Below are positions 16,034-64,000 of a DNA stretch of 64,000 nt, piece after piece. The notes under the pieces were generated by a model. That model saw only the letters and a program-made list of their open reading frames with translations. It made no database searches and was not told where the DNA came from. Source of the stretch: Posidonia oceanica (taxonomy: Eukaryota > Streptophyta > Magnoliopsida > Alismatales > Posidoniaceae); NCBI GenBank assembly GCA_037176725.1, contig JAZBRS010000014.1, forward strand, positions 75,870,501 through 75,934,500, in the 5' to 3' direction. The first letter of the stretch is position 1, and each line of letters begins with the position of its first letter. The position numbers were made by a program, and so were the translations under genes.

Positions 16034-16932
16034 GTCGAATGGGTCGCACCTAAGTGCTCCTCTGGATCTACCATAGCGTCGCCTGGTGGAGCAACGGGAT
16101 GGCCGGCGTATCCGTGCTGGGGGACAGTGTATGCAGGAGTGTATGCAGGATGCTGGACTTGGTGAAGAGGAGAAGAATAAATGCCATGCTGTGCTGGGAT
16201 AGGGAGAGGATGACGGAGCGCCAGTTGCTGTACAGGCGGGGTGCCAGACAGCGAGCCAGCGAGGTACTGGGCTCCAGCCGATCCAAAGGATTGACCACCA
16301 GAAGGAAGTGGAGCATGCTGTGCTAAGTGTTGTGCGGGAGGCGGTAGACGGGCCCCCATCGTCGGAACCGTGAGCAGTTGCGACGATGGTCGAGGCGGAG
16401 GTGCAGAGGTTGGTGCATGAAATGCAGGAACTGGCCTTGGAGGAACCTCAGGGACGACAGAGACAGAAGAAGGGCGAACTGATAGAGCCATGCCCTGCAG
16501 TCTCTAGGCGAGCTCCATCAGGTGCTGGTACTGCGCCTCAGGCGTCTCGGCAACGGGAACGCTGAAGTGCAGTGCCGGCGGGGATTGAGAAGCAAGGGGT
16601 ACGGACACAGATGGTCCGGGAAGGGGGGATTCTACAGAAAAGGTCGCAGCAGCGGTGGAAGGGATGTCGAAAGCGACGTATCACTAGGACAGAGGGGGCA
16701 GTGGTGTCTCCGGAGCGCGAGTAACGGCCGTCAAGATAGACTCGGCGACCGGATCCGGAGAAAGGGAGGCTTGCCACTGTCCCGGGGTGTACTGAGAACC
16801 TAGAGACGTCAGAGGAGGAAACCCTGGCGTCGGAGGGGGAACAAGGGGGACAGAAAGAGCAACCGGAGGGGCCAGAACGGAAACACCCTCCGTGACAGGA
16901 GTAAAAGAAGGCTCACTAACGTACTGGGCCAT
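16034..16932 (-). pseudogene. Broken, truncated gag of element E
   Basis: The start codon is at 16932 (MAQYVSEPS), matching the gag start of element C. In the same frame are TAG at 16684-16686 and TAG at 16504-16506; both are CAG in the intact C sequence. The Pro/Ser/Gln-rich N-terminal domain is present (MALSVRPSS, PPPRPSSQLLTVPT, HPAYTPAYTVPQHGYAGHP). The element breaks off just after DPEEHLGATHS, before the capsid-like domain. Gag would form the particle; this copy cannot. Confidence 0.85.
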
Positions 16933-24084: not shown

Positions 24085-24621
24085 CTCACGAGCTAGGTTT
24101 CGCCTGGTTCGGAACACAGACAGCGTAGCTGAGCATTTAGAAAGCACGTTTACCTTCCTTTCTCTGCATCTCTCCACTTAGAGCATACCTTAAGCATTCA
24201 TAGGCACATAGGCATTCAATCCTGCATTTCCCTGCGTATGCGAGCGTAAGCCTAGAAAGACCGATTCTCGGGCGTGTCGGGGGTGCCTAACACCTTCCCC
24301 GCACGTAACAGGAGTCCTTGCCCTGTCTTTTGGCCCGCAGTGACCATACCGCCCTTATCCTAGGCTAGAGTCATCTCATTTGCATGTATTTGCATTTGTT
24401 TCCTTTGCATTGCTTTGCTTTGCATTTCTTGCTCGATTTTGCGTGTTAATTCGCGCATTTCCCCCCGGTTTTCCTTGTCTCCCGTTAATAGACATGGTGG
24501 CGACTCTGATTTGTCTTATCTTTCTCTTTTCTCCTCGATTTCAAGTGTTTTCGAGTCGAGCCTCTTCCTCGGATCCAATCGCCGCTAAATAGCGAGCCTG
24601 ATTCCGATCGGGATCGCTACA
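24085..24621 (+). repeat. Remnant of 3' LTR of element B
   Basis: These 537 bp match 15213-15771 of B's own 5' LTR, including the GTGCCTAACACCTTCCCC box and the terminal GATCGCTACA. A small deletion removes one CATTCATTTAG segment. Its left end is the insertion point of E. Confidence 0.9.
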
Positions 24622-25320
24622 CTATTGCTAGGCTGATATCCTAAACTATCACCAGCAATTGCATTATACGGCTGATATCCAGTAACTATCCCTCATCATT
24701 GCACGTTCCAGTTGATAGGCCTATAAACTATCCGCCAGTTGATAGGACTGTAAACTATCGTTCCAGTTGATAGGACTGTAAACTATCGTTCCAGTTGATA
24801 GGACTGTAAACTATCGCTAGGCTGATATCCTAAACTATCACGTGCAATCATGTTATACGGCTGACACCCAGTAACTGTCCCTCGCAATGCCGTTTCCAGT
24901 TGATAGGACTGTAAACTATCCGCCAGTTGATAGGCTTGTAAACTATCCGCCAGTTGATAGGTCTGTAAACTATCGCTCCAGTTGATAGGACTGTAAACTA
25001 TCCGGCATTTGCGTTATACGGCTGATACCCAGTAACTATCACTCATGGTTTGTGGCTTCCAGTTGATAGGTCTGTAAACTATCCGCCAGTTGATAGGTCT
25101 GTAAACTATCCGCCAGTTGATAGGACTGTAAACTATCCCACACAACCATGTTATATGGCTGATATCCAGTAACTATCACTCACAACTGCCCTAGGCTGAT
25201 AACCTAAACTATCACTCTAGGCTGATAACCTAAACTATCACTCCAGGCTGATAACCTAAACTATCGCTCTAGGCTGATAACCTAAACTATCACTCCCGAT
25301 TGATAGGACCGTAAACTATC
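24622..25320 (+). repeat. GATA/TATC mini-hairpin repeat array, right part (element A)
   Basis: More than twenty short inverted-repeat units with three loop types: GTTGATAGG-x-CTGTAAACTATC, GGCTGATATCCAGTAACTATC and GGCTGATAACCTAAACTATC. Units with GACA have TGTC in the partner arm (for example near 24861). A GATAAG-8 nt-CTTATC hairpin closes the array at about 25326-25345. Confidence 0.88.
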
Positions 25321-36700: not shown

Positions 36701-39457
36701 CGGTCAGTTCTCCTTCTCCGGCGCTGGCTGCTCTTCCTCCGGACACTCCGACCAATGGAGCGAACTCCGGATAGTTCCCAGAGCTCCGGACGAACGCCAG
36801 CACCAAGCTCCGCCGGTCTGCGCCTCCCCAACCTCCCCTGTCGGCGGTCACGAGCACTGCCGGCGTTCTGCTACAGTGCTCGTCGACCGCCGACTAGCAC
36901 TGTTCATTTATTTTCCTATTTGTATAGTTTAGATGTAAATATTGCATGTTTAGCTTAAGTTTTTCAATTTTTGCATTCCAGTCCTTCTGCCATTTATTAT
37001 GCTTAGTTTTAAATTGAATACTATGCCAAATTGCTGTTTTTATTTCCATTTTTCAGTATTTGCTTTTCAGTCCTGTCACTGTGCATTTCAGTTATAATAT
37101 TTTGTAGTTTAGCCCCTCTGCTTTTGATTTTTGCATGTAAGTTCTGTCTTAAATCAGTTAATTTAGTTGCATGCATTTTGCCATATTGCATTGCATTTCA
37201 AGTCCCTGCATGTTTCTGATTTTGCATGTAGGTCCATGCACTGTAGGAACTTAGTTTTTATTTTCTTATTTTGCATACTGCATTGCATTTCTTTTCCTCT
37301 GTTTTTGCATATTTGCATTTAGGTCCATTTTAAATGGACAGTAGCTGTTATGCATGTATTTTGGCTTATTGTATTGCATTTTCAACCCTGTTTTTTCCAA
37401 AAATCACACATCAGTCCTGTTCCCTGTTTTTCAGAGCATGTTTTCCATATAAAATTGCATATTTGACCCCTGCATGATTTGAAAATCACACATAGGTCCT
37501 TGCATCTTTTGAAAAATCATGTGAAAAGATCATTTTGCCCCTAGGTTGCATCCTAGCTCCTATGCTTACCAAATTGCATGCAGACCCTCCACCAGTATTC
37601 TCAGACTCCCCAGAACCTTGTTTTCTGGAAAATTTGCATTTTAGACCCCAGTTTTCTTAAAATTACTTTCTGATCCCTTTCTGCTTTCAAAACCTCTTTC
37701 AAAGCATACCTTCTTTTCAAAACAGCTTTCTGAGCCTAGTTTTTTGCAAAATGGACCCCTGTCCTCTCCTGTTTTCGAAATCCTTTCCTGTGGACCCCTG
37801 TTTTCTGGAAAATTTGCATTTTTAGCCCCTTTCTTTTTCAAAATGCTTTCTGAAATCCTGGCTTTTCCCAGTTTCTTCTCTTTGCTTTTTCTTGCTTTTG
37901 CATGCATCCTGCATTCATTTAGTCTTGCATTCTAGCATCTTCTTGCACACACCAAGCACTTTTAGCTCCCCTTCACCTGGGAGGACCTTTTTGCACACCC
38001 CTAGGACCTCCTGAACACTTAGATCTATTCTTCTCCCCTGTTCTGACCCTCCTGCCTTGAAGCTGCGATATCTTCCGATCCGGCTGTTGGATCTTCTCAA
38101 GTGAGCTGCCCAGGCGACCGCAGCGAAGCGCCCTTCAGCATGGACCAGACAGATTTCAGATCAGGCTCCCGGATTTCCAGGTATGTCCTCCTGAACCCCT
38201 GCATTGCATTCATTTGCATGCCATTTGCACAGTTTTCCTTGTTTTCGCTTTCTGTCTCTTTGAGCATGTAGAATAGGGCTTCCCCTTTCTGCTTGTATCT
38301 TCCAATCCCCGTTTCGCGTATTCCTGAGTGTTTTGTGTTGTGTTTTCCTTGGATTTACCACTTAATGTGACTTTCTTCCCCCTTCTCCACGATCCGATTG
38401 CATCGCGAGCTTTGGGCAGCGTGCGAGACACACCGTGGAATGGTTTAGCGGGAAACAGTCACAAAGAGGTGGTAATCCCTCCGTTTGCACACTCTCCCCT
38501 CCGTAGGTCTTCACACCTACTCTGAGTGGTCCTAAACGACGTCTGTTCTTACACACACGTTGTTTTGCCTCCCCTTTGGCCTCTTCTGATCTTTTCTGCA
38601 TTGTTGCATTCGCATGGCTTTTCTGAGGTTTTTGCTTCGTTGTTTTGGCACCGTTTCGCGTGCCTGCTCTCGCTTTTGCACCGTTTTGCGTGCCTCTTTG
38701 CTTCCTTGTCTCGTTTTGCGTGCTGCCTTGCTTTCCTGCCTGTTTTGCATGCCGGTTTTGTTCTTTTGCTCCGTTCCGCGTGCCTTTCTTGTTTCTCGCC
38801 TTGTTTTGCGTGTTTTACGCCGTTTTCCCTTGCATGTCGATTGCATTGCATGGTTTTCTCGCTGTTTCACTTTTTCGCCTGTATTTGCATATAGGGCTGT
38901 GATGCTTACTGTCTGGAGTTCTCACGAGCTAGGTTTCGCCTAATTCGGAACACGGACAGCGTAGCTGAGCACTTAGAGAGCACGTTTACTTCCTTGCTTT
39001 GTTTCTTCCCACTTAGAGCACACCTTGAGCATTCATTTAGGCATTTATAGGCACATAGGCATTCAATCCTGCATTTTCCTGCGTATGCGAGCGTAAGCCT
39101 AGAAAGACCGATTCTCGGGCGTGTCGGGGGTGCCTAACACCTTCCCTACGCGTAACAAGAGTCCTTGCCCTGTCTTCTGGCCCGTAATGATCGTACTGCC
39201 CTTATCCTAGGCTAGAGTCATCTCATTTGCATTTGTTTTCCTTTGCATTGCTTTGCTTTGCATTTCTTGCTCGGTTTTGCGTGTTAATTCACGCATTTCC
39301 CGGTTTTCCTTGTCTCCCATTAATAGACATGGTGGCGACTCTGATTTGTCTTATCTTTCCTTTTTCTCCTCGATTTTAAGCGTTTTCGAGTTGAGCCTCT
39401 TCCTCGGATCCAATCGCCGCTAAATCAGCGAGCCTGATTCCGATCGGGATCGCTACA
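33723..39457 (+). repeat. 5' LTR of element C (5.74 kb)
   Basis: TGTTGACACCCC to GATCGCTACA, followed by the primer site. Near its start are two telomere-like CCCTAA units (about 33795-33808). Candidate splice donors are at 36605 and 38181, with an acceptor at 38506. A 407-codon Pro-rich frame (35709-36932) runs through the C-rich leader, but its 3' LTR twin is broken. Confidence 0.95.
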
Positions 39458-39476: not shown

Positions 39477-40785
39477 TTAGACTAGACTCCGGCTTTCGTT
39501 CCCGACTTTTCGCTCGCTTGTTTTGCAGCTTTGTCTGCCTTGTGTGCCTTCTTCGCCTGTTTTGCTCGCTTTTCTGTGCAAACTCCTAGCGAGTCGCTTC
39601 GTAGCTACTTTGCTTAGGTTTTGCACCTCTTTTGTCTCGGTTTGCGCTTTCCTTTGCCTGGCTTTGCTCCTTTGCCTGTTTATTTACTTACTGTCTTGCT
39701 TGTGCTCTTATCTCCTTTACAGCCTGCTTACTTTTACCTTGCTTTACCTTACTTGCTCATTATGGCTTTAATTCTTGCACATTACATGTCTACATACTTT
39801 GTTTGGCTAAAATACATGCTTTTTGGATGTTGAATGCTTCTTTTACACCCTTGCTATGTCACTACACACGCACATACTATGCTTACATGCCTTTTGACTT
39901 GATGAATGCTTTTCTTCACCGTCATATTCACAAACACTCGCACATGCCATGAACATGCCTTTTGTTGTGTTGTATGATGGTTGCTTGCCATTTTGACTGA
40001 TTTTCTTCCCTTTTGCACTTGCCATGCTTAGGATAGTAGAGACTTGTCTGCTTCCCCCATGGTTAACTAAAAAATGCAAGTAAAAAGAACTTCTAGGGGC
40101 AACTAGAGACTACAAACAATCCTTCACTCCCTTTGGTTAATAAAATGTGCAAGATAAAAAACTCTAATCATTTGCATAAGCATCATATAGGGCATGCATT
40201 CTTCTCCTCTGAGTCCACCTACTAGTCTGCGAAGGACGGTTCCGGCCTCTTGTTCCACTGCTTTGGGCGTGGCATAAGTTGGTCGGTCCGTCCCCTCCTT
40301 GTCCGGGGGTCGTGTTGGTGTTAGTAGAGGGTACCACCCACGCTTTGGTGGGGTAGAGGCCACCAACGCACCACCCTGTCATTACCTGAGTTTTGGGCCG
40401 GGAGTTAGACAGGGGACCTACTTTTTCTGACCTGAGTCGGTGACCCGTACATCCAGGGATACCTGGAGTAGACAGCCTTGCTAGGAAACACTAGTTAGGT
40501 AAGGGGGCATACTAGAAAGCATGCACATCATTCATGCCACTTAACTAACTCATTTGCATTCATCTTTTAGTTTCTAACCCTAATTTCCTTCTGTTGTGTC
40601 AGCGTGATCGGTAAGCGAGTTTCCCTTTGCCAGAGCTCGAGTATCGACCCTCGTTGACACCCTTTTGCGACTTAGTTCGCGACCGTTCCCCCTCTGGGCT
40701 ATCCGCATTTGCGACGATAGCTCCTCTTAGGACTCACCGCTTGAATACTCGTCGCAGCCCTGTTCTCACACGCTCTAGGTCAGCG
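39477..40785 (+). other. 5' leader of element C
   Basis: Non-coding, homologous to the E and D leaders. It contains the conserved block near 40180-40200 (antisense and sense versions agree). A GGGTACCACCCACGCTTTGG segment near 40330 is also kept in E and D. No conserved long frame is seen before gag. Confidence 0.7.
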
Positions 40786-41103
40786 ATGGCCCAGTACGTT
40801 AGTGAGCCTTCTTTTACTCCTGTCACGGAGGGTGTTTCCGTTCTGGCCCCTCCGGTTGCTCTTTCTGTCCCCCTTGTTCCCCCTCCGACGCCAGGGTTTC
40901 CTCCTCTGACGTCTCTAGGTTCTCAGTACACCCCGGGACAGTGGCAAGCCTCCCTTTCTCCGGATCCGGTCGCCGAGTCTATCTTGACGGCCGTTACTCG
41001 CGCTCCGGAGACACCACTGCCCCCTCCGTCCTAGTGATACGTCGCTTTCGACATCCCTTCCACCGCTGCTGCGACCTTTTCTGTAGAATCCCCCCTTCCG
41101 AGC
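40786..41103 (+). pseudogene. Duplicated N-terminal gag segment with a stop codon (element C)
   Basis: A first ATG (MAQYVSEPS) at 40786 opens 82 codons and ends in TAG at 41032-41034. The same segment is repeated 404 bp later, starting at 41190. The offset is not a multiple of three. This first copy shares its stop and its YTPGQ variant with element E. The second copy has CAG and YVPGQ. Confidence 0.85.
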
Positions 41104-41189
41104 TATTCGCACTTGCGACGATAGCTCCTCTTAGGAAGCACCGCTTGAATACTCGTCGCAGCCCTGTTCTCACACGCTCTAGGTCAGCG

Positions 41190-44100
41190 ATGGCCCAGTA
41201 CGTTAGTGAGCCTTCCTTTACTCCTGTCACGGAGGGTGTTTCTGTTCTGGCCCCTCCGGTTGCTCTTTCTGTCCCCCTTGTTCCCCCTCCGACGCCAGGG
41301 TTTCCTCCCCTGACGTCTCTAGGTTCTCAGTACGTCCCGGGACAGTGGCAAGCATCTCTTCCTCCGGATCCGGTCGCCGAATCCATCTTGACGACCGTTA
41401 CTCGCGCTCCGGAGATGCCACTGCCCCCTCCGTCCCAGGGATACGTTGCTTTCGACATCCCTTCCACCGCTGCTGCGACCTTTGCTGTAGAATTCTTCCC
41501 TCCCGGACAGTCTGTGTCCGTGCCCCTTGCTTCTCAATCCCCGTCGGCACTACACTTCAGCGTCCCTGCTGTCGAGACACCCGAAGCGCAGTACCAGCAC
41601 CTGATGGAGCTTGCCCAGAGACTGCAGGGCATGGCTCTATCAGTTCGTCCTTCTTCTATCTCTGTCGTCCCTGAGGTTCCTCCGAGGCCAGTTCCTGCAT
41701 TTCATGCATCAACTTCCACACCTCCGCCTCGACCATCGTCTCAGCTGCTCACGGTTCCGACGATAGGGGCCCGTTTCCCGCCTCCTCCTGCACAACACTT
41801 GGCACAGCATGCTCCACTTTCTTCTGGTGGCCAATCCTTTGGATCGACTGGTGCCCAGTACCTCACTGGCTCACTGTCTGGCACCCCGCTTGTACAACAA
41901 CTGGTGCTCCGTCATCCACCCCCTAACCCAGCACAGCATGGCATTTATTCTTCTCCTCTTCACCAAGTCCAGCATCCTGCATACACTCCTGCATACACTG
42001 TCCCCCAACACGGATACGCCGGCCATCCCGTTGCTCCACCAGGCGACGCTATGGTAGATCCGGAGGAGCACTTAAGTGCGACCCATTCGGCGTATGTGCT
42101 CACTACCCCTGCTGATCCCTCTCCAACAGCAGCAATTCTAGACCCCATCAATAACCGGATGGACGTCTTGGAGAAGGCACTACGACTAGTGCAGGGTACT
42201 GAGCACCAGACCTACCAATTTCGGGACCTCTGCTGCTTTCCAGAGGCAGTACTCCCTTCGAAGTTCAAGATCCCGGACTTCGAGAAGTATAATGGTAGGG
42301 GCTGCCCCGTAGCACAGCTGAAGGCGTATTGCGGTGATCTCGCTCAGCTTCAGGCTGACGAGAGGTTGCTGATCCGCTTGTTCCAGAAGAGTTTGACCGG
42401 GCCGGCACTCAAGTGGTTCACATCACTCGATATGTCAGCCATCAAGACTTGGAACGACCTCAGTCAGGCGTTCCTGGAACAATACTCCTTCAACCTCGAT
42501 CTGGTCCCAAAGAGGGCGGACTTGATCGCAATCAAGCAGAATTCTGGCGAGCCGTTCGGGGAGTACGTCGGCCGCTGGCGTGCCCTTGCCTCTCAGGTTC
42601 GAGATAGACCCTCTGACGAGGAGTCTATCGAGATCGTTATCAAAGGGGCGCAGCCGTCTCTCGGAGCTCTGCTTAGCATCCAACCAGTCACTACTTTTGC
42701 GGCACTCATCAGAGCTGGAGCGCGCATGGAGAGTTCTTTGCGGAGTGGCAACTTCCCGGCTCTCTCTGCGTTCGCTAAGCAGGCAGTGATCAGCAGTAAC
42801 AGTGCCAACAGCAGCGCCTCCAACAACAACAGCGGCAGCAGCAACAACCGCCCGAAGAGGAAGGATTCGCCAAAACCCGCTGTTGCATTCGTCGATTCTC
42901 CTGCTGTGCCTGTTCGCTTGCCGTCTCGGCCTGCCCCAGCTCAGATGGTGTACGCTCCTGCACCTAGGAACCCGCACACACCGCACATCACTACCACCGC
43001 TAGACCGGTCTATCCTGCCGCACCGGCCCAGCAAGGCTCATACCCAAGGCGAAGAAGACCACCCGCTGAGAGGAGGAATTTCACCCCACTGGTGGAACCA
43101 CTCACGGTCATCTTGCCGAAGGTGGCATCGCTCCTGAAGTTCCCGGAGGTTCGTCTGCCGCCAAGCCCTCTGCCGCATTGGTTTAGGCCGGACCTCTTCT
43201 GCAATTTCCATCGAAGCGTCGGGCATTCGACGGACAATTGCTTCTCCCTGCGGAACGCGATTCAGGACCTGATCGAATCGGGAACGATTGTGATCGACAC
43301 GCACGAGGCATCCACTCAAGCACGCACTCATGCATCTGCATCTCCAGCTGTTCCCCCGCATTCTGGCATCATCCGCCAACCTTTACCGGAGCACTCTTAT
43401 CCGGGAGGGGCGGGAACCTCAGGCATCCACTCTGTCTTTCCTTCTGGGCCTGCTACTTCTGTAGTGGACCCTTCTGATCTCATCTCTGACATCTCTGAGC
43501 CTTTCCCAGTCAGTCTCTATCTTGCGGCAGTTGCCGACTCCGAGTCGGGAATCCATTTGATCCGACCGCGTGCTAGGTCGGAGCGCCCTCTCGCGCCCCC
43601 CACCGTGCTCCCTCAGGCTCAATCCCCTGTACACCTCTTAGCCAGAGCCCAGCCTAGTTCTCCCATCCACCTTTTAGGGCAGCCTCAGCTACACCTTCTA
43701 GGCAGACCTCAACCTGCCCCAGTCTTTCCACCCCAACAACCATATCCCCTAGATAGACCTCAATATCCTGTAGGTCCCCCTGTAACCCCTCCTGTGCTCA
43801 CAGCACATGCTCCAGTCGTCATTGATTTGACCCTGGACACCCATCGTGTCCCTTACAGCTACGCCACAGAAATGTGCGCGGAAGTAACGCGATCGGGGAG
43901 GGTTTATAGGCCCCCAGCACCGGCAACAAGGCCAACTCACCCTGGACCTGTTATACCCCCACCCTCAGGCCAACCCTTAGCAGATCCAACCCCGGATCAG
44001 CCTGTAGTTAGCCAAATCCCTAGCCAACCTGTAGTAACCCAGCTTCCTGTCACCACCCCTTTGGAACCTGCTAGAATCACCCCTCCAGCTACTAGGAGAA

Positions 44101-48744: not shown

Positions 48745-49947
48745 ATGGGTTTTCCTACTCTGCTGACTCCCGCACATTGCTCAGAAACCCTGCGAGAATG
48801 GATCGGCAGGCTCACTCAAGTAGATTGTGAAAAGCTGCGCCTGTGGGGCATACCAACCAAGCTGCTAAAGGCTGCTGATGTGGAGGTCAGCCGCCACCTT
48901 CTGTGCGCCGCCGCGAGATTCTGGAAGCCGGCGCACCATGTCTTCCATTTCAACAAAACTGAGCTGACACCTACACTGGAAGAGGTGCGTCGGATATGCG
49001 GCTTTTCAAAGATCTTGGGGCCGCCTGTTTTCATGAGGCGCGACGGATATCTCCGGGTCCTGAACCAACTGACTGGGCTCTCCACTCAAGCCTGCCAACA
49101 GAACCTAATCTGCACCAGTGGACCAGAGCCTATGCTTCGCCTTGCACACGTTGATGATATCTTGAACAAGCGTGCTGACCTCGGAGATGAGCTGTGGCTC
49201 CGAGGGTTTGTCATTCGCTTCCTGGGCGAACTAATCTTTACTCATGGCCGACTGACAGTGGCCATCGAGGTCGCAGAGATTGCATTAGCTATGGTGACCC
49301 AGCACATAGACCTGGCACCAGTCGTCTTGGCAGAGACTTATTGCGGGCTGGACCGCATTTCTCATCGCTACCGCCACTTCCACGGTTGCGGAGCACTCAT
49401 ACAAGTCTGGCTGACCGCGCACTTAGAGATGGACTTCCTGCGCCCTCAAGTGCACGCCTTCGAAGCCTACTGCAGCAGCGCCCGAACCAGAGCAGACAAG
49501 AGCGTCAAAGACGAGTACGAGAGGCTGTCAGCACTGACTGACGACGTTGTGATCTGGCACATCGTTCCCTCTGCAGCAGAGCCATTCACAATCTTCTTCA
49601 GCACGCGTGACACGCGGCTGATCATTCTTCCAGGCTTCACAGAAGGCGTAGAGTACCATCCAATCAAGGTCATGCGCCAGTTCGGCTTCCAGCAGGGCGC
49701 CTTCATTGACAGTACAGCGCCCGAGCTTCTACAGACTTATCCTCTCAGCACCACTGCCCCGACCAAGAAGCTCGCTAGTCTGATGCAGCACGGGGTCCAA
49801 TCTACAGACGTTGCAGCTGTGAGAGGTACTGGATGCACTCCTGATTATGAAGCCGAAGTCCGACAGCTCTGGCCAATCACTGAAGTCCCGCCAGGCGGCC
49901 CCCTATTCCCCGACTCCAGGCATCCAAAGAGGGCCCGAGTTGACTAG
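48745..49947 (+). CDS. Accessory ORF downstream of pol, 400 aa (element C copy)
   Basis: The ORF is the same length and position as 7332-8534 in A, about 54 substitutions apart, with no indel and no stop. In the first 110 codons most nucleotide differences from A are silent third-position changes. This suggests the protein was under selection while the elements were active. The conserved central block (WLRGFVIRFLGELIFTHGRL, then TVAIEVAEIALA) is unchanged. The resemblance to plant retroelement DUF7745-type proteins is from memory. The C terminus is basic (PKRARVD). The function is unknown; structural, RNA-binding or chromatin roles are all possible. Confidence 0.82.
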   Translation: MGFPTLLTPAHCSETLREWIGRLTQVDCEKLRLWGIPTKLLKAADVEVSRHLLCAAARFWKPAHHVFHFNKTELTPTLEEVRRICGFSKILGPPVFMRRDGYLRVLNQLTGLSTQACQQNLICTSGPEPMLRLAHVDDILNKRADLGDELWLRGFVIRFLGELIFTHGRLTVAIEVAEIALAMVTQHIDLAPVVLAETYCGLDRISHRYRHFHGCGALIQVWLTAHLEMDFLRPQVHAFEAYCSSARTRADKSVKDEYERLSALTDDVVIWHIVPSAAEPFTIFFSTRDTRLIILPGFTEGVEYHPIKVMRQFGFQQGAFIDSTAPELLQTYPLSTTAPTKKLASLMQHGVQSTDVAAVRGTGCTPDYEAEVRQLWPITEVPPGGPLFPDSRHPKRARVD

Positions 49948-50261: not shown

Positions 50262-51115
50262 GGGCTGGCACCCCAAACTGCCCGGTGAAAGGTCCGTCAA
50301 CCTGTCATCCTCCTCAGCTATTCATCCTCAGCTGAGTCCCTTGCGGGCTGGCACCCCAAACTGCTCGGCGATGGGTTCGTCAACCTATCATCCATCCACT
50401 CGCTTATCTATCTTTGCATCCTGATGCCAGGGGCGCATCAGCCATCCCCTGGTATTATCCTGATACCAGGGGCATCTTTTGGCCGCCCTGTGGTATCATC
50501 CCCAGCTGATCATCCCCAGCTGAGTTCTCTGCGGGCTGGCACCCCAAACTGCTCGGCGAAAGGTCCGTCAACCTGACACTTTTCTCGGCTGGTCATCCCC
50601 AGTCGAGTCCCCAGTTGGTCGCCCCCAACTGGATCATTATCTCTGCGGGCTGGCACCCCAAACTGCTCGGCGAAAGGTCCGTCAACCTGACACTCTTCTC
50701 AGCTGGTCATCCCCAGTCGAGTCCCCAGTTGGTCGCCCCCAGCTGGATCGTTATCTCTGCGGGCTGGCACCCCAAACTGCTCGGCGAAAGGTCCGTCAAC
50801 CTGACACTCTTTTCGGCTGGTCATCCCCAGTCGAATCTCCAGTTGGTCGCCCCTAGCTGGATCATTATCTCTGCGGGCTGGCACCCCAAACTGCTCGGCG
50901 AAAGGTCCGTCAACCTGACACTCTTCTCGACTGGTCATCCCCAGTCGAATCCCTAGTTGGTCGCCCCCAGCTGGATCATTATCTCTGCGGGCTGGCACCC
51001 CAAACTGCTCGGCGAAAGGTCCGTCAACCTGACACTCTTCTCGACTGGTCATCCCCAGCTGAGTCCCCAGCTGATCGCTCTCAGCTGAGTCCCTTGCAGG
51101 CTGGAACCCCAAACT
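50262..51115 (+). repeat. 114-bp tandem repeat family in 3' UTR of element C
   Basis: The unit begins GCGGGCTGGCACCCCAAACT. Starts at 50645, 50759, 50873 and 50987 are exactly 114 bp apart, with irregular members before them (50262, 50345, 50529). The extra 31 bp relative to A's 83-bp unit carries a CAGTTGG...CCAACTG or CAGCTGG...CCAGCTG inverted repeat. Because 114 is a multiple of three, false frames open on both strands. Confidence 0.9.
50446..50472 (+). other. Hairpin CCCCTGGTAT/ATACCAGGGG (element C)
   Basis: Arms at 50446-50455 and 50463-50472. It is related to CCCCTGGTGTC/GACACCAGGGG at 51184-51210 and to the A hairpin at 9186, with G-C pairs replaced by A-T pairs on both arms. Confidence 0.7.
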
Positions 51116-51183
51116 ACTCGTCTGACAAGCACGACACTCTTGTCATCACTCTCTGCTTTCGATGCCAAGGACGCGCTGGCCAA

Positions 51184-51274
51184 CCCCTGGTGTCATCCCG
51201 ACACCAGGGGCATCTTTTGATCGCCCCTTGGTATCATTCTTTCCCTCTTTCCCCTATGACGTTCCTGGCGTCAT
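51184..51274 (+). other. Two hairpin candidates in 3' UTR of element C
   Basis: CCCCTGGTGTC (51184-51194) pairs with GACACCAGGGG (51200-51210). CCTATGACG (51253-51261) pairs with CGTCATGGG (51269-51277). The second differs from A's version but stays paired. Confidence 0.65.
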
Positions 51275-51404
51275 GGGATGATTTCTTCTCATCATTCCCT
51301 TATCCCTTCTTTGCCGGCCGATAAGTCCGATATCTTATCATTCTCATCATTCCGTCATCCCCTCTTTGCCGGCCGATAAGTCCGATATCTTATCAATCAA
51401 CACT

Positions 51405-52072
51405 TCTCATCATGATCTCATCCCCCTCTTTAGCTTAATTTCTCATCATGATCTCATCCCCCTCTTTAGCTTAATTTCTCATCATGATCTCATCCCCCTC
51501 TTTAGGTTAATTTCTCATCATGATCTCATCCCCCTCTTTAGCTTAATTTCTCATCATGATCTCATCCCCCTCTTTAGCTTAATTTCTCATCATGATCTCA
51601 TCCCCCTCTTTAGATTAATTTCTCATCATGATCTCATCCCCCTCTTTAACTTAACTTCTCATCATGATCTCATCCCCCTCTTTAGATTAACTTCTCATCA
51701 TGATCTCATCCCCCTCTTTAGCTTAATTTCTCATCATGATCTCATCCCCCTCTTTAGCTTAATTTCTCATCATGATCTCATCCCCCTCTTTAGGTTAATT
51801 TCTCATCATGATCTCATCCCCCTCTTTAGGTTAATTTCTCATCATGATCTCATCCCCCTCTTTAGCTTAATTTCTCATCATGATCTCATCCCGCTCTTTA
51901 GCTTAATTTCTCATCATGATCTCATCCCCCTCTTTAGCTTAACTTCTCATCATGATCTCATCCCCCTCTTTAGCTTAACTTCTCATCATGATCTCATCCC
52001 CCTCTTTAGCTTAATTTCTCATCATGATCTCATCCCCCTCTTTAGATCAACTTCTCATCATTATCTCATCCC
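51405..52072 (+). repeat. 36-bp tandem repeat array (TCTCATCATGATCTCATCCC) in element C
   Basis: Eighteen nearly perfect 36-bp units plus one degenerate unit. They are flanked on both sides by GATAAGTCCGATATCTTATC, itself a hairpin (GATAAG/CTTATC). Since 36 is a multiple of three, a false frame (51366-52118) encodes a repeating SHHDLIPLF peptide. The A copy of the array is not in phase, so I treat it as satellite-like DNA and not as a protein. Confidence 0.95.
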
Positions 52073-52149
52073 CTCTTTGCCGGCCGATAAGTCCGATATC
52101 TTATCATTCTCATCATGATCTTGCCCCCTCTTATCAATCAATCAATCAC

Positions 52150-53160
52150 TCGTGCTAGGCTGATATCCGAAACTATCTCAGGCTGATATTCCTAAACTAT
52201 CATCTATCAATCACTCGTGCTAGGCTGATATCCGAAACTATCTCAGGCTGATATTCCTAAACTATCTTCTGGTCGATCCATGGTCGGCCCGCAGTTGTGT
52301 TATACGGCTGACATCCAGTAACTGTCCCTCGTAATTGCACTTCTCTAGTTGATAGGTCTGTAAACTATCCACCGGTTGACAGGACCGTAAACTGTCGCTC
52401 CAGTTGATAGGTCTGTAAACTATCGCGTGCAATTACGTTATACGGCTGACATCCAGTAACTGTCCCTTGCAATTGCGGTTTCCAGTTGATAGGACTGTAA
52501 ACTATCCTCCAGTTGATAGGTCTGTAAACTATCCACCGGTTGACAGGACCGTAAACTGTCGTTAGGCTGATATTCCTAAACTATCACCAGCAATTGCATT
52601 ATACGGCTGATATCCAGTAACTATCCCTCATCATTGCGCGTTTCCAGTTGATAGGTCTGTAAACTATCCGCCGGTTGACAGGACCGTAAACTGTCGCTCC
52701 AGTTGATAGGTCTGTAAACTATCCGCCAGTTGGTAGGACTGTAAACTACCACGCGCAATCATGTTATACGGCTGACATCCAGTAACTGTCCCTCGCAATG
52801 CCGTTTCCAGTTGATAGGACTGTAAACTATCCTCCAGTTGATAGGTCTGTAAACTATCCGCCGGTTGACAGGACCGTAAACTGTCGCTCCAGATGATAGA
52901 CTGTAAACTATCCGGCATTGCGTTATACGGCTGATATCCAGTAACTATCCCTCATGGTTTGTGGTTTCCAGTTGATAGGTCTGTAAACTATCCGCCAGTT
53001 GATAGGTCTGTAAACTATCCGCCAGTTGATAGGACTGTAAACTATCCCACAACCATGTTATACGGCTGATATCCAGTAACTATCACTCACAACTGCCTCT
53101 GGTTGACAGGACCGTAAACTGTCACTCCCGGTTGATAGGACCGTAAACTATCCGGACGAT
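52150..53160 (+). repeat. Covarying mini-hairpin repeat array in element C
   Basis: About 30 short inverted repeats in tandem. The commonest unit is GTTGATAGG-x-CTGTAAACTATC; others are GTTGACAGGACCGTAAACTGTC, GTTGGTAGGACTGTAAACTACC, GGCTGATATCCAGTAACTATC and GGCTGACATCCAGTAACTGTC. In every unit I read, a change in one arm is matched in the other. The loop keeps TAAAC or GTAAC. Confidence 0.92.
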
Positions 53161-53665
53161 AAGCCTGTCACCTTATCATTTTTTTTTTCCTTTTCGGCGT
53201 GACCTTGTCCCAGGAAGACAAAGTCACGCACCCCCTTTCTGCGATAGGAGAGTTGGCCTCTCTCCCCTCGCGCCCCTTTCTCTTCTCTCTGCTAGCTTGC
53301 TCCCCGGGCGGGGACCAGCTGCACCCTGTTTTCCTTCGCTTTGTCGTGCAAGTCTGGCCTCCCTGCAAGATATTCGCACCACATCGCGCCTTTTTATCAT
53401 TTCTCCTGCATCATCTCTGCACTTTCTTAGCTAGCACTGCATATCACTTTAGCATCATCGGTATCACTTGCACAGCATCAGCATTTTCTTCTAGCTGCAC
53501 TAACTTTTATACTAACTCTTGCAATGCACTCGCATCAGCATGCATACACACAGCACAGCATCCATCTGCACTGGCATCTTGCATTGCGGCAACGGGCTAC
53601 GATCTTCGGTGCATCCGCCGAATAAGTAGCTCACGCCCATAGCAACCCGCTGCTCCCGCCGGTCA
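53161..53665 (+). other. Spacer between repeats and polypurine tract (element C)
   Basis: No gene. It is collinear with 25321-25815. It opens with GATAAG...CTTATC and contains the CCCCGGGCGGGG palindrome (about 53302) and a GCAT-rich stretch. Confidence 0.6.
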
Positions 53666-53732
53666 GATGGGGTGTCTTGTCAACCCTGAGCAGCGGCCGC
53701 GCTCCGCTTGCCCTCGCTCAGGGAGGGGCATC
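53666..53732 (+). promoter_or_regulatory. Polypurine tract inside a two-part stem (element C)
   Basis: The outer arm GATGGGGTGTCTTGTCAAC (53666-53684) is complementary to the LTR start GTTGACACCCCATC (53734-53747). The inner stem is CCCTGAGC (53684-53691) with GCTCAGGG (53716-53723). The polypurine tract AGGGAGGGGCATC (53720-53732) begins in the inner 3' arm. Confidence 0.85.
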
Positions 53733-56700
53733 TGTTGACACCCCATCTTGGCAGGCCCGGACCCTTGGAGCCCTCTTGGTGATTGCTGGATCAAACCCCA
53801 ACCAAACCCTAACCCTAATCCTCCTCTCTACCCTTCAAAATCAGCCTGTTTTGACCTAAACCTTTACCCCTCTTCCCAACCTCAAAACCAAACCAAAATC
53901 TATAGGAAAATCCACCACTATCCACCCAACAAGCCTACCCAAAAACCTAGAAATTTCCAAACCTAACCCATTCCCAAAAACCATAGAAAACCTAGGTGAA
54001 ACTACCCTTTTTCTACACCTTGAAATCCCTCCAAAACCTCCTTAGAATCAAACCAAAACTTCAGAAACAAGACTTCAAACACTAGACTAGCCACTCACCA
54101 ATTCTCACCCCATTCCAAGACCATTAAGACCCTCTTACACCCAAATTATCCTTTTCTCTCTCCGGGATTATCATTTTCTCTCTCCTCTCTCTCTCCTGAT
54201 TATCATCTCCCTCTTCATCCCTTTCTTATCCTTTTTCTGGTCTGGCTGTGGGCCCCCTCTGTGCCTCTATCCTTCCTCTATCTTATCCCTATTTTTACTT
54301 TATTTTTAATATTTTCTCTGAATTTTAAAAATCGTTTTCCTCCAACCTATCTCTTTTCCTCTTATCTCCCTCTTTTTTCCATTTCTTTCTTCCTTCTCTT
54401 TTTCTTTTCTCTCTTTTGCAAAAATCCACAAAAACCCATAAAAATCTGTAAAACCTCAAAACATAAAAGAAACAATTCAGAACCCTAAGAAAAACAATTA
54501 AAAATATATTAAACAAGCTATTAACAACTTAAACTTAACTAAATCAAGTTAAAAGAAAAACCAAACATGCAAGCTAAAAAATGCAAAACAAATCAAAAGA
54601 AAACACTGAAAAATCAAGGAAAAAACTAAAATGAGATCTAAACCCAGCAAAAGTAAAAACCCTACTAAAAGAATTAAAAAACAAACCCTAAAAAAGAAGA
54701 ATTAAAAATCAAACACTAAAACAAGTAATTAAAGAAGGCAAAAGACTTAATCTAATAAACATAAGAAAAACAAGTTAAAAACTTAATTAAAAAAGAAGAG
54801 AAAAACACATCTGAAAGACTTGAAAACACTCTATCAAACCAGAAAAAAAGCCAACTATAAAACTTCAAGGAAAATCAACAAATAAAAATCAAAACATAAC
54901 TTAAAAGACTTAAGAAGGAAAAAACCCTAAGAAGACTAAAACTTAAAAACCTAAAACCAACCCTGATTAATACGAAATTAAATCCTAAAAAAATCCTAAT
55001 CAATATCCTAAGTGTCCAACAAGGGAAATACAATTTTTAAAACAATTTAAGAAAGGTTTAACAAACATTTAATCAAGTGAAAACCAATTAAAAGCAAAAC
55101 CAAAACCCTAAAACCCTAATCAAGCCCAAAACACATTAATCAACTCAAAATGACCATCAAAAAATTTAATTAAAATCCTAATCTACAGCACAACTCTTCT
55201 AATATTTTTATTTATTTTTAGTTCCTTTTTACTAATTTTATTTCCCCATTCTACCCTCTCTCTCTTCCTTCTTTCCCATTTTTCTTTCCCTTTTTTTTCC
55301 TTACTGGGCTTATCAGCCCGTTCCCTTTCTTCTCTATTTCCTTTTTCTTTTTTCTCGGCCCACAGTCTGGCCTTCCCCACCCTTCTTCTTCCTCAATCTT
55401 CCTCTGTGTTTTTTTTTCTTCTTTCCCACCGATTCTCCCGCGAACGGCCAGCTGCAGTATTCCCTCCTCCGGTTTGAATTCAAGCTTCAATCCTTTCAAT
55501 CTACAGCAGCCCGCCGTCTCCTCCATCTCAGCACCAAATCCGGAGCCGGTCGCCCCGTCCCCTCCGCTGCAGTAACCGCTGGCCGAGTTTGAATTCTCAG
55601 CTCGCGCCCAGCAGCAGCAGCTCCTCATTCATAAGCCTCCCGTCCTCCCTTCAATCCGGAGTGTAAGACAGAGTGCTAGACAGAGCCGGAGTGTGAGCAA
55701 GCAAGAGTGAGAGTGTGAGTGACAGAGCGACCCAGAGAGAGAACCCAACCTGAGAGAGACCAGAATCCAGAGGATTTTTCTCCACCTGAAAGACCGTTCT
55801 CGCTTCTTCCACTTCATCCTTCCAATTCAGGAGAGAGCAGAAGAGAGTTCGAGAGTCCAGTGCATCCCGGAGAGGCCACCCAATTCCCCAGAATTCCCCT
55901 CCTGAAACCTCTCCCTTTCCTTCCTCAAAACTCAGCAGACTCTTCCCCTTCTTTCCCAATAGCCCAGCACCCATTCAAGCCTCAATTTCCCTCTCAATCA
56001 CTCCCCCAATTTCACCCAGAAACCTAGTCATCTCCCAGCATCGTTCCCCAGCCATTCCACTACCTAATCTGCCCTGAAACACCACCTGAAGCCGACTGCA
56101 ACCCAACTGGACCCAACTCACAATTCCCCTCTCCGCAGCCCGCAGCTTCTTCCCAAACTCCACCCAGAAATCCACCAGACATCCACCTTTCCAGAGCCTC
56201 CGACAGCAAACCAAACCATCCACCACAGCCCCCAAGTTCCACAACAAACACCTTGCTTCGTTTCAGCCCAGAAATCGACCCAATCCTCAATTCCACTCCC
56301 CGCTCTCCAGAAGACCTCTCCGAGTATCCAACTTCACTCGCTAGACTTCCAGCAATCTCCCGGAAGGCTCCATCCGAGCCGACGAGCAGCAAACACCCCC
56401 CCCCCGGCCTCCGGCTGTCACCTGTGAACCCAAATCGGCCGAATCTCCACCTGAGCTGCGAAGCTTGCGTCCGGTCGATCAGGAAGCTCCGGAGGAACGT
56501 TCTGAAGCCACTCCATCCCTCGCGAGTAGCCGACAGCACCCGCAGCGACTGGACAAACGCCGCCGGCCGCTTCTGGAACCACTGACGTCGGGAGGACATC
56601 TCAGACGCAGACTCAGGTACATTTTGCTTCCCTTAGCTTCCTCTTCCTTCCCTCTTGCTTCTCCAGCCTATAGATTAGGATTTCCGGTCTTCCTGCTCCG

Positions 56701-59470
56701 TCCCCGACTCGCCGGTCAGTTCTCCTTCTCCGGCGCTGGCTGCTCTTCCTCCGGACACTCCGACCAACGGAGCGAACTCCGGATAGTTCCCAGAGCTCCG
56801 GACGAACGCCAGCACCAAGCTCCGCTGGTCTGCGCCTCCCCAACCTCCCCTGTCGGCGGTCACGAGCACTGCCGGTGTTCTGCTACAGTGCTCGTCGACC
56901 GCCGACTAGCACTGTTCATTTATTTTCCTATTTGTATAGTTTAGATGTAAATATTGCATGTTTAGCTTAAGTTTTTCAATTTTTGCATTCCAGTCCTTCT
57001 GCCATTTATTATGCTTAGTTTTAAATTGAATACTATGCCAAATTGCTGTTTTTATTTCCATTTTTCAGTATTTGCTTTTCAGTCCTGTCACTGTGCGTTT
57101 CAGTTATAATATTTTGTAGTTTAGCCCCTCTGCTTTTGATTTTTGCATGTAAGTCCTGTCTTAAATCAGTTAATTTAGTTGCATGCATTTTGCCATATTG
57201 CATTGCATTTCAAGTCCCTGCATGTTTCTGATTTTGCATGTAGGTCCATGCACTGTAGGAACTTAGCTTTTATTTTCTTATTTTGCATACTGCATTGCAT
57301 TTCTTTTCCTCTGTTTTTGCATATTTGCATTTAGGTCCATTTTAAATGGACAGTAGCTGTTATGCATGTATTTTGGCTTATTGTATTGCATTTTCAACCC
57401 TGTTTTTTCCAAAAATCACACATCAGTCCTGTTCCCTGTTTTTCAGAGCATGTTTTCCATATAAAATTGCATATTTGACCCCTGCATGATTTGAAAATCA
57501 CACATAGGTCCTTGCATCTTTTGAAAAATCATGTGAAAAGACCATTTTGCCCCTAGGTTGCATCCTAGCTCCTATGCTTACCAAATTGCATGCAGACCCT
57601 CCACCAGTATTCTCAGACTCCCCAGAACCTTGTTTTTTGGAAAATTTGCATTTTAGACCCCAGTTTTCTTAAAATTACTTTCTGATCCCTTTCTGCTTTC
57701 AAAACCTCTTTCAAAGCATACCTTCTTTTCAAAACAGCTTTCTGAGCCTAGTTTTTTGCAAAATGGACCCCTGTCCTCTCCTGTTTTCGAAATCCTTTCC
57801 TGTGGACTCCTGTTTTCTGGAAAATTTGCATTTTTAGCCCCTTTCTTTTTCAAAATGCTTTCTGAAATCCTGGCTTTTCCCAGTTTCTTCTCTTTACTTT
57901 TTCTTGCTTTTGCATGCATCCTGCATTCATTTAGTCTTGCATTCTAGCATCTTCTTGCACACACCAAGCACTTTTAGCTCCCCTTCATCTGGGAGGACCT
58001 TTTTGCACACCCCTAGGACCTCCTGAACACTTAGATCTATTCTTCTCCCCTGTTCTGGCCCTCCTGCCTTGAAGCTGCGATATCTTCCGATCCGGCCGTT
58101 GGATCTTCTCAAGTGAGCTGCCCAGGCGACTGCAGCGAAGCGCCCTTCAGCATGGACCAGACAGATTTCAGATCAGGCTCCCGGATTTCTAGGTATGTCC
58201 TCCTGAACCCCTGCATTGCATTCATTTGCATGCCATTTGCACAGTTTTCCTTGTTTTCGCTTTCTGTCTCTTTGAGCATGTAGAATAGGGCTTCCCCTTT
58301 CTGCTTGTATCTTCCAATCCCCGTTTCGCGTATTCCTGAGTGTTTTGTGTTGTGTTTTCCCTGGATTTACCACTTATTGTGACTTTCTTTCCCCTTCTCC
58401 ACGATCCGATTGCATCGCGAGCTTTGGGCAACGTGCGAGACACACCGTGGAATGGTTTAGCGGGAAACAGTCACAAAGAGGTGGTAATCCCTCCGTTTGC
58501 ACACTCTCCCCTCCGTAGGTCTTCACACCTACTCTGAGTGGTCTTAAACGACGTCTGTTCTTACACACACGTTGTTTTGCCTCCCCTTTGGCCTCTTCTG
58601 ATCTTTTCTGCATTCTTGCATTCGCATGGCTTTTCTGAGGTTTTTGCTTCGTTGTTTTGGCACCGTTTCGCGTGCCCGCTCTCGCTTTTGCACCGTTTTG
58701 CGTGCCTCTTTGCTTCCTTGTCTCGTTTTGCGTGCTGCCTTGCTTTCCCGCCTGTTTTGCATGCCGGTTTTGTTCTTTTGCTCCGTTCCGCGTGCCTTTC
58801 TTGTTTCTCGCCTTGTTTTGCGTGTTTTACGCCGTTTTCCCTTGCATGTCGATTGCATTGCATGGTTTTCTCGCTGTTTCGCTTTTTCGCCTGTATTTGC
58901 ATATAGGGCTGTGATGCTTACTGTCTGGAGTTCTCACGAGCTAGGTTTCGCCTAATTCGGAACACGGACAGCATAGCTGAGCACTTAGAGAGCACGTTTA
59001 CTTCCTTGCTTTGTTTCTTCCCACTTAGAGCACACCTTGAGCATTCATTTAGGCATTTATAGGCACATAGGCATTCAATCCTGCATTTTCCTGCGTATGC
59101 GAGCGTAAGCCTAGAAAGACCGATTCTCGGGCGTGTCGGGGGTGCCTAACACCTTCCCCACGCGTAACAGGAGTCCTTGCCCTGTCTTCTGGCCCGTAAT
59201 GACCGTACTGCCCTTATCCTAGGCTAGAGTCATCTCATTTGCATTTGTTTTCCTTTGCATTGCTTTGCTTTGCATTTCTTGCTCGGTTTTGCGTGTTAAT
59301 TCATGCATTTCCCCGATTTTCCTTGTCTCCCGTTAATAGACATGGTGGCGACTCTGATTTGTCTTATCTTTCCTTTTTCTCCTCGATTTTAAGCGTTTTC
59401 GAGTTGAGCCTCTTCCTCGGATCCAATCGCCGCTAAATCAGCGAGCCTGATTCCGATCGGGATCGCTACA
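53733..59470 (+). repeat. 3' LTR of element C (5.74 kb)
   Basis: Near-identical to 33723-39457, with scattered substitutions. For example, CCAG|GTATGT at the second donor is CTAG|GTATGT here. It ends GATCGCTACA and is followed by GTGTG. Confidence 0.95.
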
Positions 59471-63141: not shown

Positions 63142-63206
63142 GATGCCCCTCCCTAAGCGAGGTCAAGCGTAGCAAGACCGCTGCTTAGGGTAGACAAGAC
63201 ACCCTA
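63142..63206 (-). promoter_or_regulatory. Polypurine tract and stem of element F
   Basis: On the minus strand AGGGAGGGGCATC abuts TGTAGACACC. The inner stem is CCCTAAGC/GCTTAGGG (63183-63190 and 63151-63158). The outer arm GTCTAC (63190-63195) pairs with GTAGAC of the LTR start (63135-63140). Confidence 0.82.
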
Positions 63207-63610
63207 CTTGACACCGGCAGGAGCGTAATATCACTGTAGGCGTGAATCATTCACCCGGTGGATGCACCGGAAAACATGACTCTGAGCCATAATGCAAATG
63301 CAGATGCAAGTGCTGTTGCCGATGCAATGCGTGCCGGTGCGAATGCTATGCATGCCGATGCAACTATTTACCATGCAATGCTGTTAGTAAAAGAATGCGG
63401 TGCTGATGCAGAAGGGATGCAAAGAAAGCTGCAATGCAATGCGTGGGTTCGGGGATTAGTCCGAGCTCACAAAGGGGGATGCCTGACAAAACTGACAGGC
63501 TTGGCATCCGAGCAGTTGGGGCTGCTAGCCCAACAAGCAAGAGGGGTAGACAATTGGACGGCTGTCGACCGAGCAGTTAGGGCTACCAGCCCGCAGGGGA
63601 AACAGAAGCA
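63207..63610 (-). other. Spacer and inverted repeats in 3' UTR of element F
   Basis: No gene. The GCAT-rich part (63290-63430) matches in style the spacers at 25560 and 53400. A GTTGGG...CCCAAC hairpin sits near 63515-63534 and a GGGCT...AGCCC hairpin near 63578-63592. Confidence 0.6.
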
Positions 63611-64000
63611 GCTTGTCCTCGCCCGAGGAAGCAAGCAAGAAAAGAAAGGGGGTAGGCAAGCGTGGGCATCGTCTGCACGGAGCGAAGCCACGCAAGGGTA
63701 GATCCTCGCACGAGGATACAGGGCAGGACTCTGAGCATACGAGGTCCGAGAAGAGCTTGTCCTCGCCCGAGGAAGTAAGCAAGAAAAGAAAGGGGGCAGG
63801 TAAGTGTGGGCATCGTCCGCACGGAGCGAAGCCACGCAAGGGCAGATCCTCGCACGAGGATACAGGGCAGGACTCCGAGCATACAGGGTCCGAGAAGAGC
63901 TTGTCCTCGCCCGAGGAAGCAAGTAAGAAAAGAAAGGGGGCAGGCAAGCATGGGCATCGTCCACACGGAGCGAAGCCACGCATGGGCTGATCCTCGCACG
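63611..64000 (-). repeat. 144-bp tandem repeat in 3' UTR of element F
   Basis: Units begin at 63611, 63755 and 63899, exactly 144 bp apart, with a fourth expected off the edge. Each unit holds TCCTCGCCCGAGGA and ATCCTCGCACGAGGAT, both near-perfect hairpins. The multiple-of-three length opens false frames on both strands. Confidence 0.92.

Follow-up and report, generated by a model that had tools for sequence, protein, structure and literature searches.

The 64-kb stretch of Posidonia oceanica DNA analyzed here (the window) forms a nest of large LTR retroelements; the genome to which it belongs measures 2.96 Gb in 80 contigs. Within it we delimited a full-length Ogre-like Ty3 LTR retrotransposon on the plus strand (33723-59470; the host element, or copy C) from a comparison of its LTRs, from Pfam matches and from its flanks, read by eye. 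The 5′ LTR (33723-39457, +) and the 3′ LTR (53733-59470, +) share 98.9% identity over 5741 aligned bp, with 60 mismatches; GTGTG was read by eye at both outer borders from the LTR ends and flanks, and the polypurine tract (PPT) AGGGAGGGGCATC (53720-53732) stands immediately 5′ of the 3′ LTR. Pfam identified gag and G-patch domains in the host element, and RT, RNase H, an additional RNase H and integrase in a neighboring copy, copy A. The pol order, read in copy A, is RT_RNaseH (618-721), RVT_3 (782-900) and Integrase_H2C2 (992-1048); an additional RNase H between RNase H and integrase has been reported as a rule common to Ogre and Retand (PMC6317226). Downstream of pol, both A and C contain a 400-amino acid accessory ORF with a plant mobile domain (PF10536), which in the host element (48745-49947, +) also matched DUF7745 (Pfam E 6.7e-20 and 7.9e-15, above the cut-off). 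A plant mobile domain is reported for 57% of Ogre elements (PMC6317226), and the ORF agrees with Ogre, yet is not exclusive proof of it. An assignment to the Ogre lineage (Ty3, Tat clade) fits because of the RNase H order and this ORF. A direct duplication of 404 bp (40698-41493), 94% alike, surrounds the beginning of the gag frame in the host element, and a 1188-nt inverted repeat with 99% complementarity (16619-17806 and 39912-41099) occurs between two oppositely oriented elements.

Tandem arrays are present between the last large ORF and the 3′ LTR of the host element, where the arrays reported by TRF span 50526-53047. Arrays in this position are known in Retand and Ogre, where their function is unknown (PMC11963269, PMC3305785). 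The first consists of 114-bp tandem repeats (50526-51087, +; TRF), each with a pseudoknot candidate of the form GGG-CT-GGCA-C-CCC-AAAC-TGCT, which starts at 50533, 50647, 50761, 50875 and 50989. It is followed by an 11-bp hairpin, CCCCTGGTGTC/GACACCAGGGG (51184-51210, +; by eye), which copy A shares, and by a 9-bp hairpin (51253-51277, +) in which the C-A alignment, read by eye and without a control, shows a G-C to A-U double change. Single units of the form CGG-CC-GATAAG-T-CCG-ATAT-CTTATC occur at 51315, 51370 and 52081. Between the 114-bp array and the pseudoknot array stand about 19 copies of a pyrimidine-rich 36-bp repeat with the core CATCATGATC (51404-52078; 96% matches in TRF), which has no obvious stem. 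The array studied here, array C (52156-53152, +), lies between the last large ORF and the PPT; two pattern extractions gave 30 units (19 of type 1, 6 of type 2 and 5 of type 3), in agreement with the earlier note, which had counted about 30. The same note had placed the array just after the accessory ORF, whereas a gap of about 2.2 kb, holding the 114-bp and 36-bp arrays, separates the two. Past the array we found an end hairpin, GCGTGACCTTGTC/GACAAAGTCACGC (53197-53229, +), and, by eye, a hairpin running into the PPT, CCCTGAGC/GCTCAGGG (53684-53732, +; 53684-53691 with 53716-53723). The latter overlaps the PPT and may bear on plus-strand priming; its counterpart in a relative at the window end, CCCTAAGC/GCTTAGGG, differs from C by a double change, read by eye without a control.

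Two further copies of the array occur in the window. Array A (9840-10132, +; pattern extraction and LTR comparison) has 8 units and ends at a direct junction with the LTR at 10133, and array B (24629-25320, +; pattern extraction and duplex energies) has 22 units in three arms. In copy A, the final pseudoknot unit abuts the LTR start (10108-10133), the PPT is missing and ATC is shared at the junction, an arrangement suggestive of a deletion or template switch there. In copy B, an apparent LTR end (CTACA) abuts the array (24610-24640) and the coding region is gone. Junctions at the array were thus seen in two of the three copies (A and B).

Every unit contains a pair of inner arms, which we call S2. 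The units were extracted first with anchors that left the arms free apart from the first G, and then with a stricter pattern in which the arm letters were restricted too. The S2 arms were perfectly complementary in all 60 units (8 in A, 22 in B and 30 in C), which bears out the earlier note's claim that arm changes are always paired. The forms were GATA/TATC in 49 units, GACA/TGTC in 10 and GGTA/TACC in one. Compared instead with the left arm of the following unit, right arms matched in 36 of 57 comparisons, against 60 of 60 within their own unit. When right arms were redealt among the 34 type-1 units, all matched in none of 10,000 shuffles, and among the 11 type-2 units in 26 of 10,000; the 15 type-3 units have a single arm form and are therefore uninformative in this test. 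Spacers within the stem-closed arms measure only 2-3 nt, so that no degenerate or broken unit can be hidden there. The loop was said to keep TAAAC or GTAAC; both loop ends were seen, and AAAC ends occur as well.

Such perfection could have a simple origin. In an ordinary minisatellite, a few founder inverted repeats would have been copied and homogenized, so that pairing is inherited rather than maintained and serves no function. The units show 23 distinct sequences when 6 nt of flank are included, yet only three inner-arm forms, and many are identical; among the type-1 units of C, the five with GACAG arms are near-identical copies, and tandem arrays at this place have been reported for Retand and Ogre with function unknown (PMC11963269, PMC3305785). 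Because about three double changes within arrays A-C suffice to produce three forms, founder-unit copying accounts for much of the S2 signal. We nevertheless consider a functionless minisatellite unlikely: broken inner arms number 0 of 60, and further points against it come from the arm stems, from copy B and from related elements, as set out below. As the S2 signal alone could stem from about three founder events, we sought independent layers of evidence.

One such layer is a second helix, S1. In most unit forms, the flank 5′ of the left arm is complementary to part of the loop, which would allow an H-type pseudoknot. The description of the units as mini-hairpins therefore holds for the S2 arms but is incomplete: it leaves out the pairing of flank and loop in most unit forms (candidate pseudoknots) and the higher order of arms. 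Type-1 units (52345-53152, +) combine S1 CAGT/ACTG or CGGT/ACCG, L1 T, S2 GATAG/CTATC, GACAG/CTGTC or GGTAG/CTACC, L2 G and L3 TAAA, as in CAGT-T-GATAG-G-ACTG-TAAA-CTATC and CGGT-T-GACAG-G-ACCG-TAAA-CTGTC. Type-2 units lie between the arms (52304-53084, +; starts at 52304, 52442, 52603, 52768, 52927 and 53062) and have the form ACGG-CT-GATA-T-CC(A)GT-AAC-TATC, with S1 ACGG paired with CC(A)GT and S2 GAYA/TRTC. Type-3 units read TAGG-CT-GATA-A-CCTA-AAC-TATC. The sterics of an H-type pseudoknot call for a short L1 over S2 and a longer, A-rich L3 over S1, and the unit loops (L1 T or CT; L3 TAAA, AAC, AAAC or TAAC) obey this rule.

We analyzed covariation in the 34 type-1 units of A, B and C, which collapse into 11 distinct rows. 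With both helices, the covariation score was 0.277, reached by none of 500 shuffles, and slid partners gave at most 0.085; 92.9% of cells were paired (reached by 2 of 500 shuffles), compared with 24-51% for slid partners. Across the 11 rows, S2 had 100% of its cells paired and S1 84.1%. Double changes in S2 fall at columns 8/24 and 9/23, and in S1 at one site only, columns 3/15 (A-U in 7 rows, G-C in 4); the inner end of S1 is weak, with the pair at columns 5/13 formed in 6 of 11 rows. S1 is kept less strictly than S2. Two crossing helices that both carry compensatory change, as expected of an H-type pseudoknot, were thus found in type 1, at a single S1 site. A covariation check of the kind that the earlier note proposed, run here within arrays A-C, gave a divided answer: the two-helix score of type 1 exceeded all shuffles, but the number of pairs with a double change over the whole structure, 3, was reached by 108 of 500. 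Type 2 alone (11 units, 5 distinct rows) was not significant, its score being reached by 56 of 500 shuffles; every cell was paired in the 5 rows, with one double-change pair.

A search with S2 given and a strict geometry detected S1 helices with 3 or more Watson-Crick pairs in eight of the 11 unit forms. When the letters of loop and flank were shuffled, an equally good result arose with a probability of 0.000-0.063 in each of these eight, values that are not negligible singly. No S1 of 3 Watson-Crick pairs was found by this search in the other 3 of 11 forms, of which one is bulged, one has a longer L2 and one offers GG/CC only. When motif starts with an S1 of 3 bp and an S2 of 5 bp were counted, a procedure in which one unit may count more than once, C had 29 against a shuffled mean of 0.31 (maximum 2), A 8 against 0.13 and B 26 against 0.29. 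A non-overlapping search over whole 3′ regions on the plus strand gave 23 against 3.3 in C, 11 against 0.8 in A and 14 against 1.8 in B, and 12 of the 23 matches in C fall outside the array. None of 14 control tests (7 regions, both strands) exceeded its shuffled maximum. Counts on the minus strand were also above shuffles in B (9 against 2.6, maximum 5) and A (6 against 2.1, maximum 4), which is expected because inverted repeats abound. Rfam yielded no match at the gathering score across the whole 64-kb window, and within 50300-53760 only two sub-threshold hits, both antisense (E 3.9 and 7.9), the former to a plant-virus xrRNA. Hairpin counts against shuffles were dropped as evidence, since such counts alone are not specific: in the gag ORF they are likewise above shuffles (21 hairpins, shuffled mean 10.5, maximum 18).

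The geometry of the units also favors a strand. The plus strand is preferred because a first loop of 1-2 nt and an A-rich third loop fit an H-type knot, and because S2 of the GGG-type units often ends in G-U on the plus strand, which equals A-C on the minus strand. On the minus strand, by the usual geometry rule, a single nucleotide of the type-1 knot would have to span the shallow groove along 5 bp. Fold energy was uninformative as a strand test, the minus strand having the lower mean energy in each of the nine regions, including the controls. These observations bear on whether the paired sites might act as double-stranded DNA, either as palindromic protein-binding sites or as cruciforms. The GATA/TATC arms resemble GATA/I-box sites, and such inverted repeats could be dimer sites; Retand elements, moreover, are reported to encode a probable DNA-binding protein (PMC11963269). 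A DNA-binding site would hold its letters, whereas the arm letters vary provided that they pair; S1 crosses S2, which is impossible in a cruciform; G-U ends are tolerated on the plus strand; and the strands of the arm stems described next lie far apart. We regard a role as DNA sites as very improbable.

A second layer lies above the units. Between successive type-2 units stand groups of 3-5 units, and each group is bordered by inverted sequences of its own. In array C, these form five arms on the plus strand: arm 1 (52330-52437; CGTAATTGCAC/GTGCAATTACG, 52330-52340 with 52427-52437, 11 bp, 3 type-1 units, -16.6 kcal/mol, present in 4/4 folds), arm 2 (52468-52598; TGCAATTGC/GCAATTGCA, 52468-52476 with 52590-52598, 9 bp and more beyond a bulge, 4 units, -16.4, 4/4 folds), arm 3 (52629-52763; CATCATTGCGCGT/ACGCGCAATCATG, 52629-52641 with 52751-52763, one mismatch, 4 units, -15.6, 4/4 folds), arm 4 (52794-52922; CGCAATGCCG/CGGCATTGCG, 52794-52803 with 52913-52922, 10 bp, 4 units, -18.7, 9/10 pairs in 3/4 folds) and arm 5 (52953-53057; CATGGTTTGTGG/CCACAACCATG, 52953-52964 with 53047-53057, 11 bp with one bulge, 3 units, -15.2, outer 7 bp in 4/4 folds). 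A further stem closes the five arms (52291-53096, +), pairing GCAGTTGTG (52291-52299), 5′ of the first type-2 unit, with CACAACTGC (53088-53096), 3′ of the last (duplex -14.8 kcal/mol; in the minimum free energy (MFE) fold of 3/4 fragments). Arm stems measure 9-13 bp, each with its own sequence, and their strands lie 82-113 nt apart. The nine own duplexes (five arms and the closing stem of C, three arms of B) averaged -15.8 kcal/mol; the 66 cross pairings of non-homologous arms averaged -6.0 kcal/mol, and only one reached the weakest own value. That each arm has its own stem, with weak cross pairings, argues against the copying of a few founders.

Folding, which the earlier note had suggested as a check, bore on the arm stems. 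All six stems appeared in the MFE structures of the 811-, 881- and 1101-nt fragments (3 of the 4 folded), and the 811-nt fragment, cut at the closing stem, had a z of -3.69 (20 shuffles); the MFE structure of the 921-nt fragment lacked both the closing stem and arm 4, each with a probability of 0.25. Inside the arms, this pseudoknot-free fold favors contacts between units, and it therefore neither supports nor tests the knots.

The spacing of the arm strands is also relevant to hairpin-templated correction, in which one arm would template the repair of the other during reverse transcription or replication, so that the array would be a mutational by-product without selection. This process would account for the perfect S2 arms and the paired changes, and in two of the three copies the array is bordered by a deletion junction with a few letters in common, the trace expected of template switching (by eye). 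It poorly explains arm strands 82-113 nt apart with other units between them. Loop lengths and the A-rich L3 are nearly fixed and the palindromes are not growing; the crossing S1 and S2 both show paired change; and similar loops occur with other stems in relatives. We consider templated correction improbable.

A comparison of copies B and C provided a third layer. Among 225 structure pairs scored, 8 double changes keep the pairing: two in S1, four in S2, one in an arm stem (the arm-3 pair 52638/52754, G-C in C and A-U in B) and one in the end hairpin (pair 53208/53218, U-A to C-G in B). One of the S2 changes (53107/53121) falls where the aligned B-C units are non-homologous. Random partners gave a mean of 0.97 double changes of any kind over 2000 rounds, with a maximum of 5, and this excess over random partners again argues against a minisatellite. 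One S1 double change, in the same non-homologous stretch, fails to pair. Single changes break five S1 pairs (two in that stretch) and one S2 pair (also there), and none in arm stems or end hairpins; single changes to G-U number two in S1 and one in end hairpins, with three more at S1 positions unpaired in C. The substitution rate was 0.067 at paired sites and 0.103 at unpaired sites.

We then considered three relatives in the 200 kb of flanks (L001, L008 and L011), which match piecewise at about 68-82% identity in protein-coding and 3′-end pieces and whose 3′ regions differ in sequence from that of the host element. One related 3′ region, with two-tier hairpins and GGG-type pseudoknot candidates, lies at the window end on the minus strand (63142-64000) and runs upstream into L011. 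Many units of the relatives are two-tier hairpins around CCTC/GAGG. We picked 68 of these for a paired inner stem, and because of that selection the outer stem is the only test. With the best of six registers and G-U allowed, the outer stem was fully paired in 42 of 68, compared with 29.9 after redealing (0 of 2000 as high); at a looser cut (4 of 5), the count of 57 of 68 was hardly above the redealt 53.8 (97 of 2000 as high). Outer-stem forms include GCTTG/CAAGC, GTCTG/CAGAC and GCCTG/CAGGC. A reading of the CCTC...GAGG units as pseudoknots was ruled out, as the crossing helix pairs fully in 19 of 68 and the nested outer stem in 42; this misreading made up 6 of 11 and 6 of 13 pseudoknot-search hits in the relatives' regions X and Y.

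The GGG-CT-GGCA-C-CCC-AAAC-TGCT unit type is common to A, C and the relatives. Its S2 was fully paired, G-U allowed, in 21 of 28 anchor matches, against a shuffled mean of 13.6 (0 of 5000 as high), in forms that include GGCA/TGCT, GGTA/TACT, AGCA/TGCT, GACA/TGTC, GATA/TATC and GGCA/TGCC, among others. Of the seven misses, three are anchors resembling other sequences, and the rest are a mismatch in one unit of C and three of L001. Taken alone, L001 did not rise above chance, with 7 hairpins against a mean of 3.6 (maximum 8) and 6 pseudoknots against 2.2 (maximum 8). The L008-L011 comparison (81% identity overall) was left out of the covariation analysis because an upstream stretch is misaligned and the remainder looks, by eye, like post-insertion decay. 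L001 also contains (7200-8020) a run of roughly twelve units, each about 62 bp long, in which GACTC/GAGTC hairpins take turns with CCTC/GAGG hairpins. That relatives with other sequences show likewise paired change is a further point against a minisatellite. Two or three homogenized founders, the counter-explanation raised in the earlier note, suffice for the inner arms taken alone; they leave the arm stems, the end hairpin and the relatives unexplained. The note's reading of paired change as the mark of a maintained structure accordingly draws its support from the arm stems, the B-C double changes and the relatives, while much of the pairing within the array is explicable by copying.

Comparison with described arrays places array C in a known class. 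The five interleaved minisatellites of GmOgre (PMC3305785) and the arrays of Retand (PMC11963269) occupy the same place in the same or a sister lineage, with interleaved types and variable copy number. These texts describe sequence repeats, whereas the units of array C pair and change in pairs. The words "pseudoknot", "hairpin" and "secondary structure" do not occur in PMC11963269, nor do "hairpin", "secondary structure", "stem-loop" and "palindrom" in PMC3305785, and among the matches listed and the open papers we found no report of pseudoknots or pairing in the 3′ arrays of plant LTR elements. We therefore assign array C to a known class of arrays, to which the pairing adds a new feature.

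Complementarity is present at three levels, and double changes go beyond the controls. We propose, with a probability of about 0.55, that the array specifies a structured RNA on the sense strand of an Ogre-like 3′ UTR, most likely a cis-acting platform for the full-length RNA. We infer that the sense RNA folds as proposed in cells: small H-type pseudoknot units in groups of 3-5 would sit in stem-closed arms (five in C), single type-2 units would separate the arms and one stem would close the whole. Base pairing rather than sequence would be selected over cycles of retrotransposition, so that paired changes persist, while unit copying within the array would spread variants. The resulting multivalent platform on the full-length RNA would be bound by a host or element protein, for which the plant mobile domain protein is an attractive candidate. 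Its position and build, which are like those of retroviral export elements, suggest that it may be used for nuclear export of the intron-retaining genomic RNA, or for packaging.

The HIV Rev response element is a multi-arm RNA that forms a multivalent protein platform. The array, if folded as proposed, would resemble it in this build. The CTE, the RTE and the MTE of musD are likewise cis-acting structured RNAs of LTR elements, and the array fits them in its position and, if folded as proposed, in its build; they act in animal hosts through the NXF1 pathway, whereas plants, according to a review, use TREX rather than this receptor. We are aware of no plant element in which export through such a structure has been demonstrated.

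The main alternative to an export or packaging platform, and the next most likely function, would be support of translation or stability, in which the array binds eEF1A or blocks an exonuclease like a viral tandem-pseudoknot domain. Like the proposed fold of array C, the tobamovirus UPD is built of tandem pseudoknots in a 3′ UTR in plants; its structure rather than its sequence matters, and eEF1A/GTP binds it (PMC4683447). It differs in having three consecutive pseudoknots (PMC4683447), compared with about 30 candidates in stem-closed arms in a retrotransposon. The single Rfam match that points this way, the plant-virus xrRNA, is sub-threshold and antisense (E 3.9). The element's transcript should carry a cap and receive its poly(A) tail in the 3′ LTR, which lessens the need for such support. 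We judge this function unlikely in itself, although it is compatible with a cis-acting platform.

Beyond this element, we tentatively suggest, at somewhat less than even odds, that Ogre-lineage retrotransposons possess a class of modular 3′ RNA scaffolds of about 800 nt to 3 kb, built of pseudoknots in one family and of two-tier hairpins in others, whose units turn over in sequence and number while selection preserves their structure. On this view, the hypervariable, satellite-like 3′ regions found in Tat elements would be multivalent platforms of RNA that evolve fast and that the plant mobile domain protein may recognize, in a partnership like that of Rev and the RRE. Should the units prove to be RNA folds under selection, these arrays would gain a testable function, and array C would explain how a "hypervariable" region is conserved, namely in structure and not in sequence. 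According to a December 2025 review, the RNA export of plant LTR retrotransposons has not been directly studied (PMC12786077). The array would be a candidate cis element for this step.
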